Shown one piece after another: positions 1,785-11,607 of a stretch of DNA of 11,629 nt (position 1 is the stretch's first letter; each line of letters opens with the position of its first letter). This DNA comes from an uncultured Lachnospiraceae bacterium. Its GTDB lineage: Bacteria > Bacillota > Clostridia > Lachnospirales > Lachnospiraceae. The position numbers were made by a program, and so were the translations under genes. The DNA is taken from assembly GCA_934418055.1 (NCBI GenBank), contig CAKRWX010000050.1, positions 1-11,629 on the forward strand. The letters run 5' to 3'. The notes beneath the pieces were generated by a model, which made no database searches, was not told where the DNA came from, and was given only the letters and a program-made list of their open reading frames with translations.

Positions 1785-2543
1785 TCACCCCTGAAATTCC
1801 GTCATATACGGTCTGAAACGGAGTGGCAGATGGTTCATCTGACACCTTGGATTGATTCTCTCCATGATGGCAATATGCTCATGGTAGGTCTTCCACAAGT
1901 TCTCAAAAGCACTCTGGTCACTGCTGTCTTCCAGTCGTTCTTTCCAGCTCTCATCATCCAGCTGTACCATAAACCACGGCTGCTCTGCCTGATGCACTAC
2001 AGCTTTTTTCCGTTTTTCATCGTAAATCACCCAGTTTTCTCCCCGCAACCGGTCTGCGAAGTGAGGAGCCAGAAGAACGATCACATCATTCTCCGGACCG
2101 ACTGTTCCAAACAGGATTCCATCCCGGGTATTTCCAAACCGCAGAAACTCTATCAGATAATGGGCTTCATTCGATACCATCCGATTGATGCGGAAAATCT
2201 CATACACAGCTGGAATCTGAATCTGATCTACGATTTTTCTCCCATAGGTGATCGCGTAGACCAGATAACGATAAATGGCATCTGCTTTTTCCTCTTCTCC
2301 GCTCAAAAAAGCCCGGTAAACCTGCTCATAGACCTGGTCTCCTGCTTTCTTACGGATCACAGAGATCACCTTCTCGGTCTTTTCTGGCGTCACTTCTACC
2401 TCACGGTACTGGGCAAACATCTGGAGATTTCCATGGTTCTCCAGTTCCAGTTTCACATTGGCATGGCCCAGTTTGCTCATCCAGGCATCATACACGCCGC
2501 ATAAAATTCCTTCAAAGGTATCACTACAGGTAAAAATCGTCAT
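1785..2543 (-). CDS. TIGR03915-family putative DNA repair/metabolism protein, partner of radical SAM protein
   Basis: This 252-aa protein has no transmembrane segment or signal peptide. It begins with MTIFTCSDTFEGILCGVYDAW and ends LPLRFRPYMTEFQG, both typical of the TIGR03915 family of probable DNA metabolism proteins found beside a radical SAM partner. In some other bacteria this family is fused to a uracil-DNA-glycosylase-like domain. No such domain is present here, and the length fits the standalone form. Its ATG overlaps the stop of the upstream radical SAM gene as ATGA (2543-2540), so the two are translationally coupled and probably work together. The biochemical function is unknown. 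Control should follow the LexA-flanked promoter upstream of the radical SAM gene. Confidence 0.85.
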   Translation of the reverse strand: MTIFTCSDTFEGILCGVYDAWMSKLGHANVKLELENHGNLQMFAQYREVEVTPEKTEKVISVIRKKAGDQVYEQVYRAFLSGEEEKADAIYRYLVYAITYGRKIVDQIQIPAVYEIFRINRMVSNEAHYLIEFLRFGNTRDGILFGTVGPENDVIVLLAPHFADRLRGENWVIYDEKRKKAVVHQAEQPWFMVQLDDESWKERLEDSSDQSAFENLWKTYHEHIAIMERINPRCQMNHLPLRFRPYMTEFQG

Positions 2544-3847
2544 ACAACACCTCCCAGAAATCCATCATCAAACAGCGACATCTGCCGATACGTGTCCGTA
2601 TGGCTGATATCCCAGGCTTTTTTGTGTTCTTCACTGACCAGCTGACTGGTGATAAAATCCTGATCGATTCTGGTCGGATACATCATCTTTCCTTTGCAGG
2701 TGATAAAGTACACCGCCCGCTTTAACACCACACCGATCTTCTTTAGATCTCCATAGTCTAACGCCGTGCCTCTCCGGGCCGCCACGATCCGTTTGGCGGA
2801 CTTGACACCGATTCCAGGGACCCGCAAAAGCGTCTGATAATCCGCCCGGTTCACCTCCACAGGGAACTGCTCCAAGTGGTTTAACGCCCAGTCGCACTTG
2901 GGATCTAAAAAAGCGTTAAAATTGGGTCGTTTCTCATTCAGAAGCTCCCTCGCCTGAAATCCGTAAAAACGCATCAGCCAGTCCGCCTGGTATAACCGGT
3001 GTTCCCGAAGAAGTGGCGGACCGCCTGGAATTACCGGAAGCTGGCTGTCTTCGTTGACCCGGACAAAGGCGGAATAATACACCCGTTTTAAATCAAAACG
3101 GTGATACAAGGCCTCCGCAATGGTAATCATCTGATAATCGCTCTCTGGCGTGGCACCTACGATCATCTGGGTACTCTGTCCCGCTGGCACGAACTTTCTT
3201 TGTCCACGATACGGCACAATCTCCCGTTCCTGCTGCCAGATCTTCCCACTGATCTGCTTCATAGGCGACAGAATCCGCTCTCTGGTCTTTCCCGGCGCTA
3301 ATTTCTTCAACCCTTCTGCTGTAGGAAGTTCCATATTAATGCTGACGCGATCTGCCAGAAGACCGATCTGCTCCACCAGTACCGGATCTGCCCCTGGAAT
3401 CACCTTGATATGAATATAGCCGTTAAACCGGTATTCATTCCGCAGTTTCCATAAAGTCTGATACAACAGATCCATGGTATAATCCGGGCTTTTTAATACG
3501 CCGGAGCTCAAAAATAATCCCTCGATATAATTGCGGCGATAAAATTCTATGGTCAGATGACACACTTCATCCGGGGTAAAGGACGTCCGCACCACGTCAT
3601 TAGAACGGCGGTTGATACAGTAACGGCAATCATAGATACACTGATTGGTAAACAGGATTTTCAACAGGGAGATACACCTGCCGTCCGCCGCAAAGCTGTG
3701 GCAGATGCCCGGTGCTACCGTATTACCCAGCATTCCCGCCTTTCCCCCTCTCTGGGAACCACTGGAAGAACAGGACACATCATACTTGGCTGCATCTGCC
3801 AAAATTCCTAATTTTTCCTGTAAGGGCATCTCTTCCTGTATCAGCAT
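2540..3847 (-). CDS. Putative DNA modification/repair radical SAM protein (TIGR03916 type)
   Basis: This 435-aa radical SAM enzyme has its 4Fe-4S-binding cysteines in the CxxxCxxC motif CIYDCRYC (Cys70, Cys74, Cys77). The cluster would reductively cleave S-adenosylmethionine to form a 5'-deoxyadenosyl radical. After the radical SAM core comes a C-terminal helix-hairpin-helix (VPGIGVKSAKRIV, about 343-355), a non-specific DNA-binding element, which supports action on DNA. This architecture matches the family called putative DNA modification/repair radical SAM protein, which co-occurs with TIGR03915 and sometimes uracil-DNA-glycosylase-like proteins. The DNA lesion or substrate is not known. 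The ATG at 3847 has AGGAGT about seven bases upstream. Two LexA-type boxes flank its promoter, so damage induction is inferred. It overlaps the next gene by four bases. Confidence 0.92.
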   Translation of the reverse strand: MLIQEEMPLQEKLGILADAAKYDVSCSSSGSQRGGKAGMLGNTVAPGICHSFAADGRCISLLKILFTNQCIYDCRYCINRRSNDVVRTSFTPDEVCHLTIEFYRRNYIEGLFLSSGVLKSPDYTMDLLYQTLWKLRNEYRFNGYIHIKVIPGADPVLVEQIGLLADRVSINMELPTAEGLKKLAPGKTRERILSPMKQISGKIWQQEREIVPYRGQRKFVPAGQSTQMIVGATPESDYQMITIAEALYHRFDLKRVYYSAFVRVNEDSQLPVIPGGPPLLREHRLYQADWLMRFYGFQARELLNEKRPNFNAFLDPKCDWALNHLEQFPVEVNRADYQTLLRVPGIGVKSAKRIVAARRGTALDYGDLKKIGVVLKRAVYFITCKGKMMYPTRIDQDFITSQLVSEEHKKAWDISHTDTYRQMSLFDDGFLGGVV

Positions 3848-3876
3848 CTATTTCACTCCTTTTTCTCAACGCGCAT

Positions 3877-3890
3877 CGAACATGTGTTTG
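3877..3890. promoter_or_regulatory. LexA (SOS) box 1, just downstream of transcript start
   Basis: The sequence CGAACATGTGTTTG resembles the Firmicutes LexA operator (CGAAC-N4-GTTCG), with a weaker right half. It lies about 10-23 bases after the expected start point of the radical SAM gene, a position where bound repressor would block transcription. Confidence 0.7.
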
Positions 3891-3905
3891 TTTTTTTCTG
3901 TCATT

Positions 3906-3934
3906 AGCATATCACATTCAATTTTATTTTTCAA
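3906..3934 (-). promoter_or_regulatory. Sigma-A promoter of the radical SAM repair operon
   Basis: On the minus strand TTGAAA (3934-3929) and TATGCT (3911-3906) are separated by 17 bases. A TG one base before the hexamer makes an extended -10. Expected start is near 3899. It sits between the two LexA boxes, one eight bases upstream of the -35 and one just after the start, so both should control it. Confidence 0.65.
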
Positions 3935-3942
3935 GTCTTTTT

Positions 3943-3956
3943 CGAACATTTGTTCT
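3943..3956. promoter_or_regulatory. LexA (SOS) box 2, upstream of -35
   Basis: The sequence CGAACATTTGTTCT contains a perfect GAAC-N4-GTTC inverted repeat, the core of the Bacillus/Clostridium LexA operator. It lies eight bases upstream of the -35 of the radical SAM gene. Together with box 1 it brackets the promoter. Confidence 0.8.
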
Positions 3957-3977
3957 TTTTTTGTTTTTACACATTGT

Positions 3978-4011
3978 AAAAAAAGAACGGCCAGTTTCCA
4001 CCAGCCGTTCT
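3978..4011 (-). terminator. Rho-independent terminator after galE
   Basis: On the minus strand the arms AGAACGGC (4011-4004) and GCCGTTCT (3991-3984) pair over eight bases around a 12-base loop. A run of seven T residues (3984-3978) follows. It lies 27 bases beyond the galE stop and separates galE from the SOS-controlled repair genes. Confidence 0.9.
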
Positions 4012-4037
4012 CATTTCATCCTAACTCTATGAAATTT

Positions 4038-5057
4038 TTATTCCGCATATCCCTCTGGATTGTTCTTCTGCCATCTCCATGCATCCTCGCACATCTCACG
4101 GATACCGCGTTTTGCCTTCCAGCCAAGCTCTTTCTCTGCTTTAGATGGATCTGCATAGCATGCCGGTACATCTCCAGCTCTTCTGTCTTTGAACACATAG
4201 TTGATCTTCAGATTATTCGCTTCTTCGAAGGCATTGATCACATCCAGAACACTATAACCGGTTCCGGTTCCTAAATTGTAGATCCAGACACCACCCTGTT
4301 CCGCTTTTAACTTTTCAAGCGCTTTTACATGACCGTCTGCGAGGTCTACTACATGGATATAGTCTCTTACACAGGTTCCATCTGGTGTGTCATAGTCATT
4401 ACCAAAGACGCCTAAGCATACCAGCTTGCCAACTGCCACCTGGGTGATGTATGGAAGCAGGTTGTTTGGGATACCCTTTGGATTCTCGCCAATCCGTCCG
4501 GACTTGTGTGCACCGATCGGATTGAAATAACGAAGCAGCATGATCTGCCACTCCGGATCTGCTGTATGTAAATCTGTTAAAATCTGCTCCAGCATACCTT
4601 TGGTACGTCCATATGGGTTCGTGATCTCGCCCTTTGGACACTCCTCCGTGATCGGAACAAATGCAGGATTGCCATATACAGTTGCGGAAGAACTAAATAC
4701 GATGCTCTTTACTCCGTGTTTTCTCATCTCGTCACACAGGATCAGGGTTCCTGTAATGTTGTTATGATAATATTCCAGAGGCTTGTACACAGATTCTCCT
4801 ACTGCTTTTAAACCTGCAAAATGAATTACCGCTTCAATCTTCTCATTATCAAATACATTCTTTACAGCTGCCTGATCCAGCAGATCTACCTCATAGAATG
4901 TTAATTTTTTCCCTGTGATCTCCTCTACACGTTTCAGAGATTCTTTGCATGAATTGCAGAGATTATCGATGACTACCACATCATAACCTGCATTCAGAAG
5001 CTCAATACAAGTATGACTGCCAATATAACCGGCTCCGCCTGTTACTAAAATTGCCAT
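4038..5057 (-). CDS. galE: UDP-glucose 4-epimerase GalE
   Basis: This short-chain dehydrogenase-family epimerase (339 aa) interconverts UDP-glucose and UDP-galactose in the cytoplasm using bound NAD+, as part of the Leloir pathway and cell-surface sugar supply. The NAD-binding glycine motif GGAGYIG is at residues 7-13. The catalytic residues are Ser124 (SSSATVYG) and Tyr149/Lys153 (YGRTK), at the same numbers as in E. coli GalE. The start chosen is ATG at 5057 because AGGAGG lies eight bases upstream and the protein then begins MAILVTGG. An ATG at 5093 would add twelve unrelated residues. The residue matching the E. coli gatekeeper Tyr299 is Cys300 (DVPACYAD), which may widen substrate range to UDP-GlcNAc/GalNAc. 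No clear promoter is seen. A terminator follows. Confidence 0.97.
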
Positions 5058-5146
5058 AGCTTCATCCTCCTGATCTAATATAAGTTGTACCATTCCGTAG
5101 GTCTTCGCACTTGCTATGCCAGCCTATAAACACATACCTGGAACGT

Positions 5147-8557: not shown

Positions 8558-9184
8558 TTATATTTTCCGCATTTCTTTCCGGATCTTCTCCAGCCCCCGT
8601 TTCTCGATCCGGCTGATGTAAGACCTTGACAGTCCCATGGCCTGGGCGATCTCCCGCTGGGTGTACTCTTTCCCACCAAATAATCCATAGCGCATACGCA
8701 CCACCTGTTTCTCATTGTCATTTAAACAGACCCGATAAGCCTGGTACAGTTCCCGCACATCCTGGTCCAGGATCATTTTCTCCAGTACGTCCTCATTTTC
8801 CATTTGGATCACGTCTACCAGATTGATGGATTCCCCGTCTTTGTCCACGCCAATGGGTTCATAAAGAGAGACTTCCCTGGAATATTTCTTGTGAGACCGC
8901 AGCAGCATCAGGATCTCATTTTCCACACATTTTGCGGCGTAAGTGGCCAGTTTGGAGCCCCGATCCGGTTTAAATGTGCTGACTGCCTTGATCAGACCGA
9001 TGGTTCCCACGGAAAGCAGATCCTCTGTATCATAATCGGTATATTGATATTTTTTGACCACATGGGCCACCAAACGCATATTATGTTCAATTAAGAGCCT
9101 GCGGGCTTCCTGGTCGCCATCTTTTAAGCGCTCCAGGCATTCCCGCTCTTTAGCGGGTGTCAGTGGATTCGGAAAGGTTTTCAA
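8558..9184 (-). CDS. sigK: Sporulation sigma factor SigK (sigma-70 family), without pro-sequence
   Basis: This 208-aa sigma factor matches mature SigK, the late mother-cell sigma factor of endospore formation. Region 2 has EHNMRLVAHVVKKY, then DLLSVGTIGLIKAV and KLATYAAKCVENEILM, which contact core polymerase and the -10 element. Region 4 ends with the helix-turn-helix TQREIAQAMGLSRSYISRI. SigE is the nearest alternative, but LYEPIG-DKDGE and SRSYISRIEKRGLEKI favour SigK. The start is a TTG at 9184 with AGGTGG six bases upstream. An in-frame TAA at 9220-9218 leaves room for only eleven extra codons, so the 20-residue membrane pro-sequence of B. subtilis SigK is absent, as in C. difficile. A SigK-like promoter lies at 9214-9241. 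No skin-element interruption is present. Confidence 0.88.
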   Translation of the reverse strand: MKTFPNPLTPAKERECLERLKDGDQEARRLLIEHNMRLVAHVVKKYQYTDYDTEDLLSVGTIGLIKAVSTFKPDRGSKLATYAAKCVENEILMLLRSHKKYSREVSLYEPIGVDKDGESINLVDVIQMENEDVLEKMILDQDVRELYQAYRVCLNDNEKQVVRMRYGLFGGKEYTQREIAQAMGLSRSYISRIEKRGLEKIRKEMRKI

Positions 9185-9699: not shown

Positions 9700-10878
9700 C
9701 TAGTGATGGAACAGACGGATTCCGGTAAAGGCCATAGCCATTCCATACTTATTACAGGTCTCAATTACATTATCATCACGGACGGAACCGCCTGGCTGGG
9801 CGATGTATTTCACACCACTCTTATATGCCCGGTCGATGTTATCACCGAATGGGAAGAACGCGTCAGAGCCTAATGCCACGTCAGTCATCTGGTCTAACCA
9901 TGCACGCTTCTCTTCTCTGGTAAATACCGGAGGTTTCACCTTAAATACTCTCTCCCACGCACCGTCTGCCAGCACATCCATGTACTCCTCTCCAATATAC
10001 ACGTCAATAGCATTGTCACGATCTGCTCTCTTGATGCCGTCCACAAACTGTAAAGATAATACCTGTGGAGCCTGGCGTAAGAACCAGTTGTCCGCCTTGT
10101 TGCCTGCCAGTCTGGTGCAGTGGACTCTGGACTGCTGTCCTGCGCCGATACCGATGGCCTGTCCGCCTTTTACATAGCAGACAGAGTTGGACTGGGTGTA
10201 TTTTAAAGTAATTAAGGAAATCAACAGGTCAATCTTCGCCTCATCCGGAATCTCCTTATTTTCCGTTACTACGTTATTTAACAATTCTTTGTTGATATCC
10301 AGCTCATTTCTGCCCTGCTCAAATACAACGCCGAACACCTGCTTGCGCTCCACTGGCTCTGGAACATAATTCTCATCCATCTGAATCACGCAGTAATTGC
10401 CATTTTTCTTAGCTTTCAGGATCTCCAGCGCCTCTGGCTCATAGCCTGGAGCGATGACACCGTCGGAAACCTCTCTCTTGATCAGTCGTGCCGTATCCAC
10501 GTCGCACACGTCAGACAGGGAAATGAAATCACCGAAGGAAGACATCCGGTCTGCACCTCTGGCTCTTGCGTAAGCACTTGCCAGCGGGGATAAATCGCCC
10601 ATATCGTCTACCCAGTAAATCTTTGCCAATGTCTCCGTCAATGGCAGACCCACTGCTGCGCCAGCTGGAGAAACATGCTTGAAAGAAGCCGCTGCTGGAA
10701 GTCCGGTGGCTTTCTTTAACTCTCTGACCAACTGCCAGCCATTGAAAGCGTCCAGGAAATTGATGTAGCCTGGACGGCCGCTTAATACTTTGATCGGCAG
10801 ATCTTTTCCATCGTTCATAAAGATCCGCGCAGGTTTCTGATTTGGGTTACAGCCGTATTTTAATTCCAGTTCGTTCAT
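9700..10878 (-). CDS. purH: Standalone AICAR transformylase (phosphoribosylaminoimidazolecarboxamide formyltransferase)
   Basis: This enzyme transfers a formyl group from 10-formyl-tetrahydrofolate to AICAR, giving FAICAR, the penultimate step of IMP synthesis. At 392 aa it has only the transformylase half of PurH (about 530 aa in E. coli); the N-terminal IMP cyclohydrolase domain is absent. The catalytic Lys67-His68 pair is in SFKHVSPAGA. Other conserved stretches are NSVCYVKGGQAIGIGAGQQSRV (around 230-251), SDAFFPFGDNID (338-349), AQPGGSVRDDNVI (360-372) and the C-terminal MAFTGIRLFHH. It lies 15 bases after the PurO-like gene, which supplies the missing cyclisation step. The ATG at 10878 follows an AAGGGAGA ribosome site. 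No convincing terminator is seen downstream. Confidence 0.95.
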   Translation of the reverse strand: MNELELKYGCNPNQKPARIFMNDGKDLPIKVLSGRPGYINFLDAFNGWQLVRELKKATGLPAAASFKHVSPAGAAVGLPLTETLAKIYWVDDMGDLSPLASAYARARGADRMSSFGDFISLSDVCDVDTARLIKREVSDGVIAPGYEPEALEILKAKKNGNYCVIQMDENYVPEPVERKQVFGVVFEQGRNELDINKELLNNVVTENKEIPDEAKIDLLISLITLKYTQSNSVCYVKGGQAIGIGAGQQSRVHCTRLAGNKADNWFLRQAPQVLSLQFVDGIKRADRDNAIDVYIGEEYMDVLADGAWERVFKVKPPVFTREEKRAWLDQMTDVALGSDAFFPFGDNIDRAYKSGVKYIAQPGGSVRDDNVIETCNKYGMAMAFTGIRLFHH

Positions 10879-10893
10879 TTGGATTCTCCCTTC

Positions 10894-11607
10894 TTAGCAA
10901 TTCTTATTGATGATTCGGCTCTCATAAGCGCCGGTTTCGATGTCAATGTAGCGGACAAATAAGGAAACTTTATTGTCTGGGTTTAAATTCTCCCATACCA
11001 TCTTGGCAAACTCATCGATCTCGCCAGAGATAGCAACCACCTTCGGCTCTCCCTCAAAGCTTGGCAGCGGATTGCCGTCGTGCATATAAGTATGGATAAA
11101 ACGGCCCTGTCCGGCCTTTGGATTCTCGTAAGCGTAGGTATAGCGGTTACAGGACTGTGGATCGCCGTCATCACTCTTTAAAATGGACATGGCAAAATTG
11201 TATCTGCCATTCTCGATATGCATGATACCAGAGATCCGAGGAGTGTAATTCGGACCGTCCGGCTCAAATTCCCGGCTTCTTAAGGACTGCTCAAAGGTAA
11301 GCTGCTTGTCCATGCCTTCATAAATGGTATCCGTCTGATCGCCATTCGTAACGATGGTCTTGTTGCCAAGAACCCGCACCGGAGCATAAATGATCAGACT
11401 TGGATCAGTTAATTTAGATGGATCAAATGCCTGGGTCCGGATGCCTGCCCCGTCCTCAACAAACACACGGTTGCGGCTGTTCTCGCTTCTGCCCATGATA
11501 AAGTAAGCAGTCACTGCCTTTTTGCCGTCTGGCGTCCTGCCAATGACGATTCCTCTTCCCGGATATGCGTTGCCGCGTAACTCTTCTGCCAGATTTAAAA
11601 TTTTCAT
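10894..11607 (-). CDS. purO: IMP cyclohydrolase, PurO-like family
   Basis: This 237-aa protein belongs to the IMP cyclohydrolase family related to archaeal PurO, which closes the ring of FAICAR to make IMP, the last step of purine synthesis. It is unrelated to the cyclohydrolase domain of bifunctional PurH. Recognised stretches include RGNAYPGRGIVIGRTPDGK, AYFIMGRSENSRNR and NYTPRISGIMHI. No membrane or export signal is seen. The ATG at 11607 has AAGGAGA about six bases upstream. The gene is complete, and its promoter, if it is the first gene, lies beyond the window edge. With the transformylase gene 15 bases downstream it forms a compact two-enzyme replacement of PurH. The identification rests on remembered family features and on this pairing. 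Confidence 0.88.
   Translation of the reverse strand: MKILNLAEELRGNAYPGRGIVIGRTPDGKKAVTAYFIMGRSENSRNRVFVEDGAGIRTQAFDPSKLTDPSLIIYAPVRVLGNKTIVTNGDQTDTIYEGMDKQLTFEQSLRSREFEPDGPNYTPRISGIMHIENGRYNFAMSILKSDDGDPQSCNRYTYAYENPKAGQGRFIHTYMHDGNPLPSFEGEPKVVAISGEIDEFAKMVWENLNPDNKVSLFVRYIDIETGAYESRIINKNC

Follow-up and report, generated by a model that had tools for sequence, protein, structure and literature searches.

What switches on an operon whose first gene belongs to a family named for DNA repair mainly by context, and does its control fit that name? We addressed this question in an 11,629-nucleotide stretch of DNA (the window) from an uncultured Lachnospiraceae bacterium (GenBank assembly GCA_934418055.1, contig CAKRWX010000050.1). 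The window contains a gene for a radical S-adenosylmethionine (SAM) protein of family TIGR03916 that overlaps a gene for a partner of family TIGR03915 (Pfam DUF4130), and two LexA-type operators bracket their promoter (Table 1). From comparisons of sequences, we put the probability that this radical SAM/DUF4130 operon is under LexA control at about 0.93, with operators that are real and conserved. Such control would indicate the condition expected to switch the operon on.

Two LexA-type boxes flank the predicted promoter

A first-pass annotation of the window had described two LexA-type boxes around an extended -10 promoter. Both box sequences are indeed present, and the promoter between them reads TTGAAA-17-TATGCT on the minus strand, with the TG in place and a predicted transcription start at ∼3899 (by position only). 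The upstream box holds the single exact copy of GAAC-N4-GTTC in the window (3944-3955), a core that ends 9 bases short of the -35 hexamer, and the core of the downstream box (3878-3889) carries one mismatch (GTTT). The two genes are coupled through an ATGA, as had been annotated, the radical SAM stop codon (2542-2540) overlapping the partner ATG (2543-2541).

Shuffled windows contained on average 0.17 exact copies of GAAC-N4-GTTC and at least one copy in 30 of 200 cases, so the exact box alone is not significant. The bare motif is also useless genome-wide, since the genome of one relative held 54 sites versus 57 for a reversed control pattern. As the bare pattern is weak evidence, we built an operator matrix from operators of other genes, namely, 100 uncurated boxes with at most one mismatch located upstream of lexA or recA in related genomes, to the exclusion of every sequence of the radical SAM operon. 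The two boxes ranked first and second in the window with this matrix, at 21.7 and 17.7 bits, and the third site scored 7.4 bits; the median of the matrix's own sites was 16.9 bits. None of 100 simulated windows reached 17.7 bits or contained two sites of at least 12 bits within 75 bp.

The first-pass annotation had proposed that the genome's own lexA and recA be checked for the same box; we read these genes in 24 related genomes, picked from those with the 80 loci described below. lexA was scored in 22 genomes, as one genome had no lexA and one more was dropped because of a contig edge, and recA in 23, since one genome had no match over the cut-off. All 22 lexA genes had a box within 300 bp (13 exact and 9 with one mismatch), and recA had an exact box in 23 of 23 cases. 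Two or more boxes were present at 21 of the 22 scored lexA loci (L081-L103), several of which share a similar one-mismatch site ending in GTTTGTC.

The boxes are conserved in the closest loci

To evaluate conservation, which had been set beforehand as a check, we used as relatives the best 80 loci that an alignment of 14 proteins retrieved from GTDB genome contigs. Their record titles are clostridial names, with two exceptions, a Paenibacillaceae and a plain Bacterium. Within 250 bp ahead of the match, 48 of the 80 loci had an exact box and another 25 a one-mismatch box, compared with 1.6% and 7.9%, respectively, of random 250-bp windows from the same loci. Sites of at least 12 bits numbered 140 in the 20,000 bp of upstream sequence versus 32 in the other 931,178 bp of these loci, a 204-fold difference. 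At least one such site was found within 250 bp in 73/80 loci and at least two in 64/80.

Seven loci lacked a site of at least 12 bits within 250 bp (L010, L018, L021, L035, L046, L050, and L056). L018 and L046 have boxes 278 to 362 bp before the match, and L010, L021, and L035 contain an extra same-strand gene ahead of the radical SAM gene, with a pair of boxes 55 to 58 bp apart before that extra gene (the second box of L021 lies inside the mechanically called frame, yet ahead of the likely methionine). L050 has only weak sites of up to 11.8 bits, and no site was found in L056, where only 325 bp of upstream sequence is present. With the farther sites counted, 78 of the 80 loci have operators ahead of what appears to be the leading gene of the operon. 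The conservation that the annotation had put up for checking is thus borne out.

The extra leading genes of L021 (4584-5984) and L010 (4547-5880, a frame broken in two) match models of RarA-type AAA ATPases below the cut-offs, and that of L035 (4821-5906) encodes a protein of 361 amino acids with a guanylate-kinase-like C-terminal part, also below the cut-off. RarA-type proteins are fork-handling AAA ATPases, and the rarA-like gene in L021 and L010 suggests a link to stalled-fork handling.

The partner gene adjoins the radical SAM gene in 77/80 loci. The DUF4130 frame opens 581 bp downstream in L047 and 1,045 bp downstream in L073, and the sequence of L067 ends first. In L073, an extra 17.4-bit LexA-type site (7907) lies between the radical SAM gene and the DUF4130 frame (8368 onward), where a separate SOS promoter may serve the partner.

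LexA-type boxes across the phylum and in other phyla

Among 299 genomes sampled evenly from the same phylum, 65 had TIGR03916 over the cut-off. These and one locus below the cut-off gave 66 loci, of which two without the search motif were dropped; the resulting 64 overlap the best 80 loci at least at L005, whose source is the centre genome. A site of at least 12 bits was present near the start in 49/64 loci, and we counted 56 sites in 24,630 bp near the start versus 8 in 216,625 bp elsewhere. Because 42 of the 49 positive loci have one such site, pairing is mainly a trait of the closest loci.

Relatives also occurred in 158 plasmid records, 16 of which were read, along with 2 of the 10 phage records; for 5 of 17 loci from these plasmid and phage records, the position of the start codon is an estimate. 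An exact GAAC-N7-GAAC was found upstream in all 11 alphaproteobacterial loci read, from nine genera, at most 39 bp from the start in ten and 100 bp away in one. On the coding strand, these 11 sites are all the copies in 55,987 bp of alphaproteobacterial loci; two more copies are on the opposite strand, including one that lies 133 bp ahead of the Thioclava gene. The single betaproteobacterial locus has an exact CTGT-N8-ACAG 29 bp upstream. These two motifs are the LexA boxes of the respective groups. An Oscillospiraceae locus carries two exact GAAC-N4-GTTC boxes at 185 and 156 bp, with a small gene standing between the boxes and the radical SAM gene.

One 43.8-kb record filed as an unverified fecal bacteriophage (L234) contains both genes (3001-5099), with boxes of 13.8 and 19.5 bits that are 24 bp apart. 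Its remaining frames look bacterial, and it may be a mislabeled piece of chromosome. A 240-kb record filed as an Acinetobacter phage (L244) has the operon near glyQ and resembles a bacterial chromosome; its operon is preceded by none of the LexA motifs that we looked for. A scan of viral contigs found no relative.

Operator placement and predicted promoter type

We predicted promoters blind to the boxes and then compared operator positions. In most loci, operators fall at about -57 to -45, at about -24 to -13, or at the predicted start. The two best boxes (70 relatives plus the window) are 50 to 66 bp apart in 35/71 cases and 20 to 35 bp apart in 29/71. A second script, which sought a promoter near the most downstream box, assigned 35 of the 80 loci to an upstream-plus-start class, 25 to a spacer-plus-start class, 1 to all three places, and 14 to the start only; 3 had operators in none of those places, and 2 had no 12-bit site. 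An extended -10 was predicted in 35/35 upstream-plus-start promoters, with an exact TTGACA in 0/35, compared with 9/25 and 13/25, respectively, in the spacer-plus-start class. The mean number of -35 matches was 3.69 in the former class and 5.12 in the latter, a gap that none of 20,000 permutations attained, species kinship being uncorrected. On the predicted promoters, the upstream operator thus takes one of two places, which goes with the promoter type. An operator in the spacer fills the place of the TG, and we infer that those promoters therefore need a better -35.

The upstream box places the window in the wide (upstream-plus-start) class. The window's spacing of 66 bp is unusual because the downstream box lies ∼10 bases past the predicted start, unlike most relatives, in which this box sits right at the start. 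On this point, the first-pass annotation, which placed one box just downstream of the start, describes the window but not most of its relatives. Strict helical phasing of the operator pair was not favored, as most wide-class spacings are scattered across 54 to 63 bp, about a whole turn.

The two proteins and their families

The radical SAM protein of the window matched TIGR03916 over the entire profile (1-415 of 415, residues 9-426) at 692.6 bits for a cut-off of 343.5. In agreement with the annotation, it has a Cx3Cx2C motif (C70, C74, and C77) and a helix-hairpin-helix, the HHH_3 match at 329-361 exceeding the Pfam cut-off (28.1 versus 27); its match to Pfam Radical_SAM was slightly below (29.4 versus 29.5). 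Helix-hairpin-helix matches were found in 30 of 30 aligned members. The partner covered TIGR03915 from 1 to 243 of 243, at 252.1 bits for a cut-off of 112.25. DUF4130 residues C6, R135, R165, D175, R229, Q235, and E249 are invariant, and H161 and D164 nearly so, a pattern suggestive of a catalytic or binding site.

Only TIGR03915 and DUF4130 matched the window partner, which showed no UdgX-type TIGR03914 domain. Since TIGR03914 exceeded its cut-off in 0 of 24 related genomes (weaker matches in 5, of up to 140 bits versus 190), a UdgX domain must be dispensable for the function of the pair. The proteobacterial partner was annotated as UdgX-family uracil-DNA binding in 8/8 loci with an adjacent listed gene, and the four partners scanned all contained TIGR03915 followed by TIGR03914, both over the cut-off. 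As for spore photoproduct lyase (PF20903), 0/30 aligned members of the radical SAM family matched at an E value of 0.01, and a comparison of profiles found nothing (probability of 0.8), both alignments being shallow enough for a distant kinship to have been missed. A separate PF20903 gene was present in five of six genomes searched, and none of the five had a LexA operator (best score of 8.6). The radical SAM/DUF4130 pair is in this way set apart both from the uracil-DNA glycosylase (UDG) domain and from spore photoproduct lyase.

Proposed mechanism and alternative explanations

In the mechanism that we propose, LexA dimers on both operators would keep the radical SAM and DUF4130 genes off in the undamaged cell. 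Upon damage, RecA filaments forming on DNA would lead to LexA self-cleavage, and the vacated operators would permit expression of the two overlapping genes. The radical SAM enzyme would bind DNA via its helix-hairpin-helix and generate a 5'-deoxyadenosyl radical, with the DUF4130 protein as a regular partner for lesion recognition or processing. The operators, the promoter, the gene overlap, the conservation, and the agreement with lexA and recA of relatives are visible in the sequences themselves; LexA binding, induction by damage, and radical chemistry on DNA are steps that we infer, and we give about even odds to the enzyme acting on a damaged base. More tentatively, and at somewhat less than even odds, TIGR03916 and TIGR03915 could together be a core system for SOS repair in several phyla, with LexA control kept or regained under three recognition sequences. 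The closest clostridial loci would then combine a constant start operator with a second one, located either upstream of the -35 hexamer of extended -10 promoters or in the spacer of promoters with a better -35, and the occasional rarA-like leader would place the action at stalled replication forks.

Several observations weigh against LexA control or against the catalytic role. No site of at least 12 bits was found near the gene in 15/64 phylum-wide loci, several of which have weaker or more distant sites. In two of two Bacteroidota loci, one of one Gemmatimonadota locus, and one of one Acinetobacter-like locus, none of six motifs had an exact match within 200 bp; two of the six do occur with one mismatch at the Gemmatimonadota locus. 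The Bacteroidetes LexA motifs in this test came from PMC8565304. RegPrecise listed no CAC3343 orthologue under LexA, according to PMC3828012, and the word "radical" is absent from the main text, as accessible, of both an in silico LexA regulon of Clostridioides difficile (PMC4234289) and a gut SOS meta-regulon (PMC3998124). In comparisons of sequences with solved structures, the partner had no homologue and the radical SAM protein had only weak local matches (best E value of 0.0086); the predicted catalytic role rests on the family assignment and the domains.

Among the alternatives, the one that survives best holds that the LexA sites are real but that the enzyme serves nucleotide or tRNA modification or salvage, or else damage tolerance through the handling of polymerases or forks, its expression simply following the SOS response. 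SOS regulons do include non-repair genes, the family name of TIGR03916 is only putative, and the leading gene is rarA-like in L021 and L010 and partly guanylate-kinase-like in L035. We nevertheless consider this explanation unlikely, given the helix-hairpin-helix of all 30 aligned members and the fusion of the proteobacterial DUF4130 partner to a UdgX-type domain (4/4 scanned, 8/8 annotated so).

It is less probable still that only one box functions and that the other is a decaying or low-affinity relic. The single mismatch of the downstream box in the window, its location ∼10 bases past the start rather than at it, and the one site of at least 12 bits in 42/49 positive phylum-wide loci would fit such a situation. 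However, the 17.7 bits of the downstream box exceed the 16.9-bit median of the uncurated lexA and recA sites, and two sites are kept in 64/80 relatives. Use of the boxes by a phage-type or other LexA-like repressor instead of LexA seems highly improbable: several relatives do encode extra LexA-like proteins (e.g., three more over the cut-off in genome G005), but the matrix that finds the boxes derives from lexA and recA promoters, and Proteobacteria have a different type of box that matches the local LexA type. That the palindromes arose by chance in AT-rich intergenic DNA, an idea fed by the exact copies in 30 of 200 window shuffles, is contradicted by the conservation in relatives, the pairing, and the scores and can be practically dismissed.

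Locus organization and neighboring genes

Table 1. Features of the radical SAM/DUF4130 locus in the window (all on the minus strand except the two operators, which have no strand)
Feature	Coordinates	Position relative to predicted start	Basis
Radical SAM gene, TIGR03916	2540..3847		Profile, 692.6 bits; Cx3Cx2C and C-terminal helix-hairpin-helix
Partner gene, TIGR03915/Pfam DUF4130	1785..2543		Profile, 252.1 bits
Upstream LexA-type operator, CGAACATTTGTTCT	3943..3956	About -56 to -45	Sequence and matrix
Downstream LexA-type operator, CGAACATGTGTTTG	3877..3890	About 10 to 21 bases past	Sequence and matrix
-35 hexamer, TTGAAA	3929..3934		Promoter prediction
Extended -10, TGaTATGCT (TG, 3914-3913; hexamer TATGCT, 3911-3906)	3906..3914		Promoter prediction
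Ribosome-binding site, AAGGAG, ATG 8 bases on	3856..3861		Read from sequence
Terminator-like hairpin behind galE	3983..4012		Consensus scan (region has 2, shuffles expect 2.2)
galE (UDP-glucose 4-epimerase), upstream neighbor outside the operon	4038..5093		Profile match

The hairpin behind galE would insulate the operon promoter. Downstream of the DUF4130 gene, a comM/yifB-type gene (53-1597) is preceded by a promoter-like TTGCTA-17-TATGAT at 1770-1742. The consensus scan found no terminator-like site between the two genes (1597-1785), and read-through after DNA damage might reach the comM/yifB-type gene. Elsewhere in the window, a minus-strand frame with a TTG start (8558-9184) encodes a SigK-like sporulation sigma factor; its match opens at profile position 24-26, and an N-terminal pro-sequence was not seen in the frame. 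Adjacent minus-strand genes at 9700-11607 encode an AICAR-transformylase-type protein and a PF07826 IMP cyclohydrolase-like protein. The purine synthesis steps of these two gene types are usually joined in PurH.

Comparison with known systems

LexA control of such operons has already been proposed in print and is hence not new. According to PMC3828012, CAC3343-CAC3344 of Clostridium acetobutylicum was placed in the LexA regulon in 2013 from footprinting and expression data, the latter obtained under butanol and butyrate stress. Like the window operon, it has the same description, by which we judge orthology, and was proposed as a LexA target; unlike the operator pair of the window, paired operators were not encountered in the accessible text, nor was a direct DNA-damage experiment. 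A literature search on that C. acetobutylicum locus tag found no paper besides PMC3828012. The LexA regulons of Gram-positive bacteria, Balneolaeota, and Streptomyces include, according to PMC7739468 and PMC9380542, a radical SAM protein whose family those papers do not name. Our literature search found no paper naming TIGR03916 and, among sources that included few subscription papers, none on paired operators. The paired-operator design with its two placements is the part that we did not find in print. As relatives keep the sites and similar control is in print, the finding is solid but largely expected. The regulatory support that the first-pass annotation saw for a family assigned by context holds on sequence grounds, while the link itself predates it (C. 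acetobutylicum in 2013 and a UDG-COG4277 operon). The lesion question becomes testable in cultured strains, for example, C. acetobutylicum and Paracoccus denitrificans.

COG4277 is probably the TIGR03916 radical SAM/helix-hairpin-helix family. SOS control has been predicted for the COG1573-COG4277 operon of Bacteroidetes, a putative UDG-based base excision repair system, in PMC8565304, which also cites reports of SOS control for Verrucomicrobia and Alphaproteobacteria. That operon carries a UDG, whereas TIGR03914 is over the cut-off in none of the 24 related genomes. DUF4130 was linked to SplB-like proteins and UDGs by Aravind et al. in 2013 (PMC3765255), a context-based prediction in whose accessible text we met no operator analysis of the radical SAM/DUF4130 operon.

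Spore photoproduct lyase shares the radical SAM type and the Cx3Cx2C motif with the first protein of the operon, whose family members do not match PF20903. The lyase, SplB, is a radical SAM enzyme that uses its Cx3Cx2C motif and repairs DNA photolesions. Because SplB (COG1533) is called SOS-regulated in several species in PMC8565304, the contrast with lyase genes lacking an operator applies to the genomes examined here.

The TIGR03916 and TIGR03915-UdgX operon of proteobacterial plasmids has the same first gene, gene order, and upstream LexA-type box as the window operon but differs in its second gene, which encodes 467 to 492 amino acids including a TIGR03914 domain, and in its operator motifs. 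For a family whose repair name derives mainly from context, the regulatory evidence is consistent in both Bacillota and Proteobacteria.
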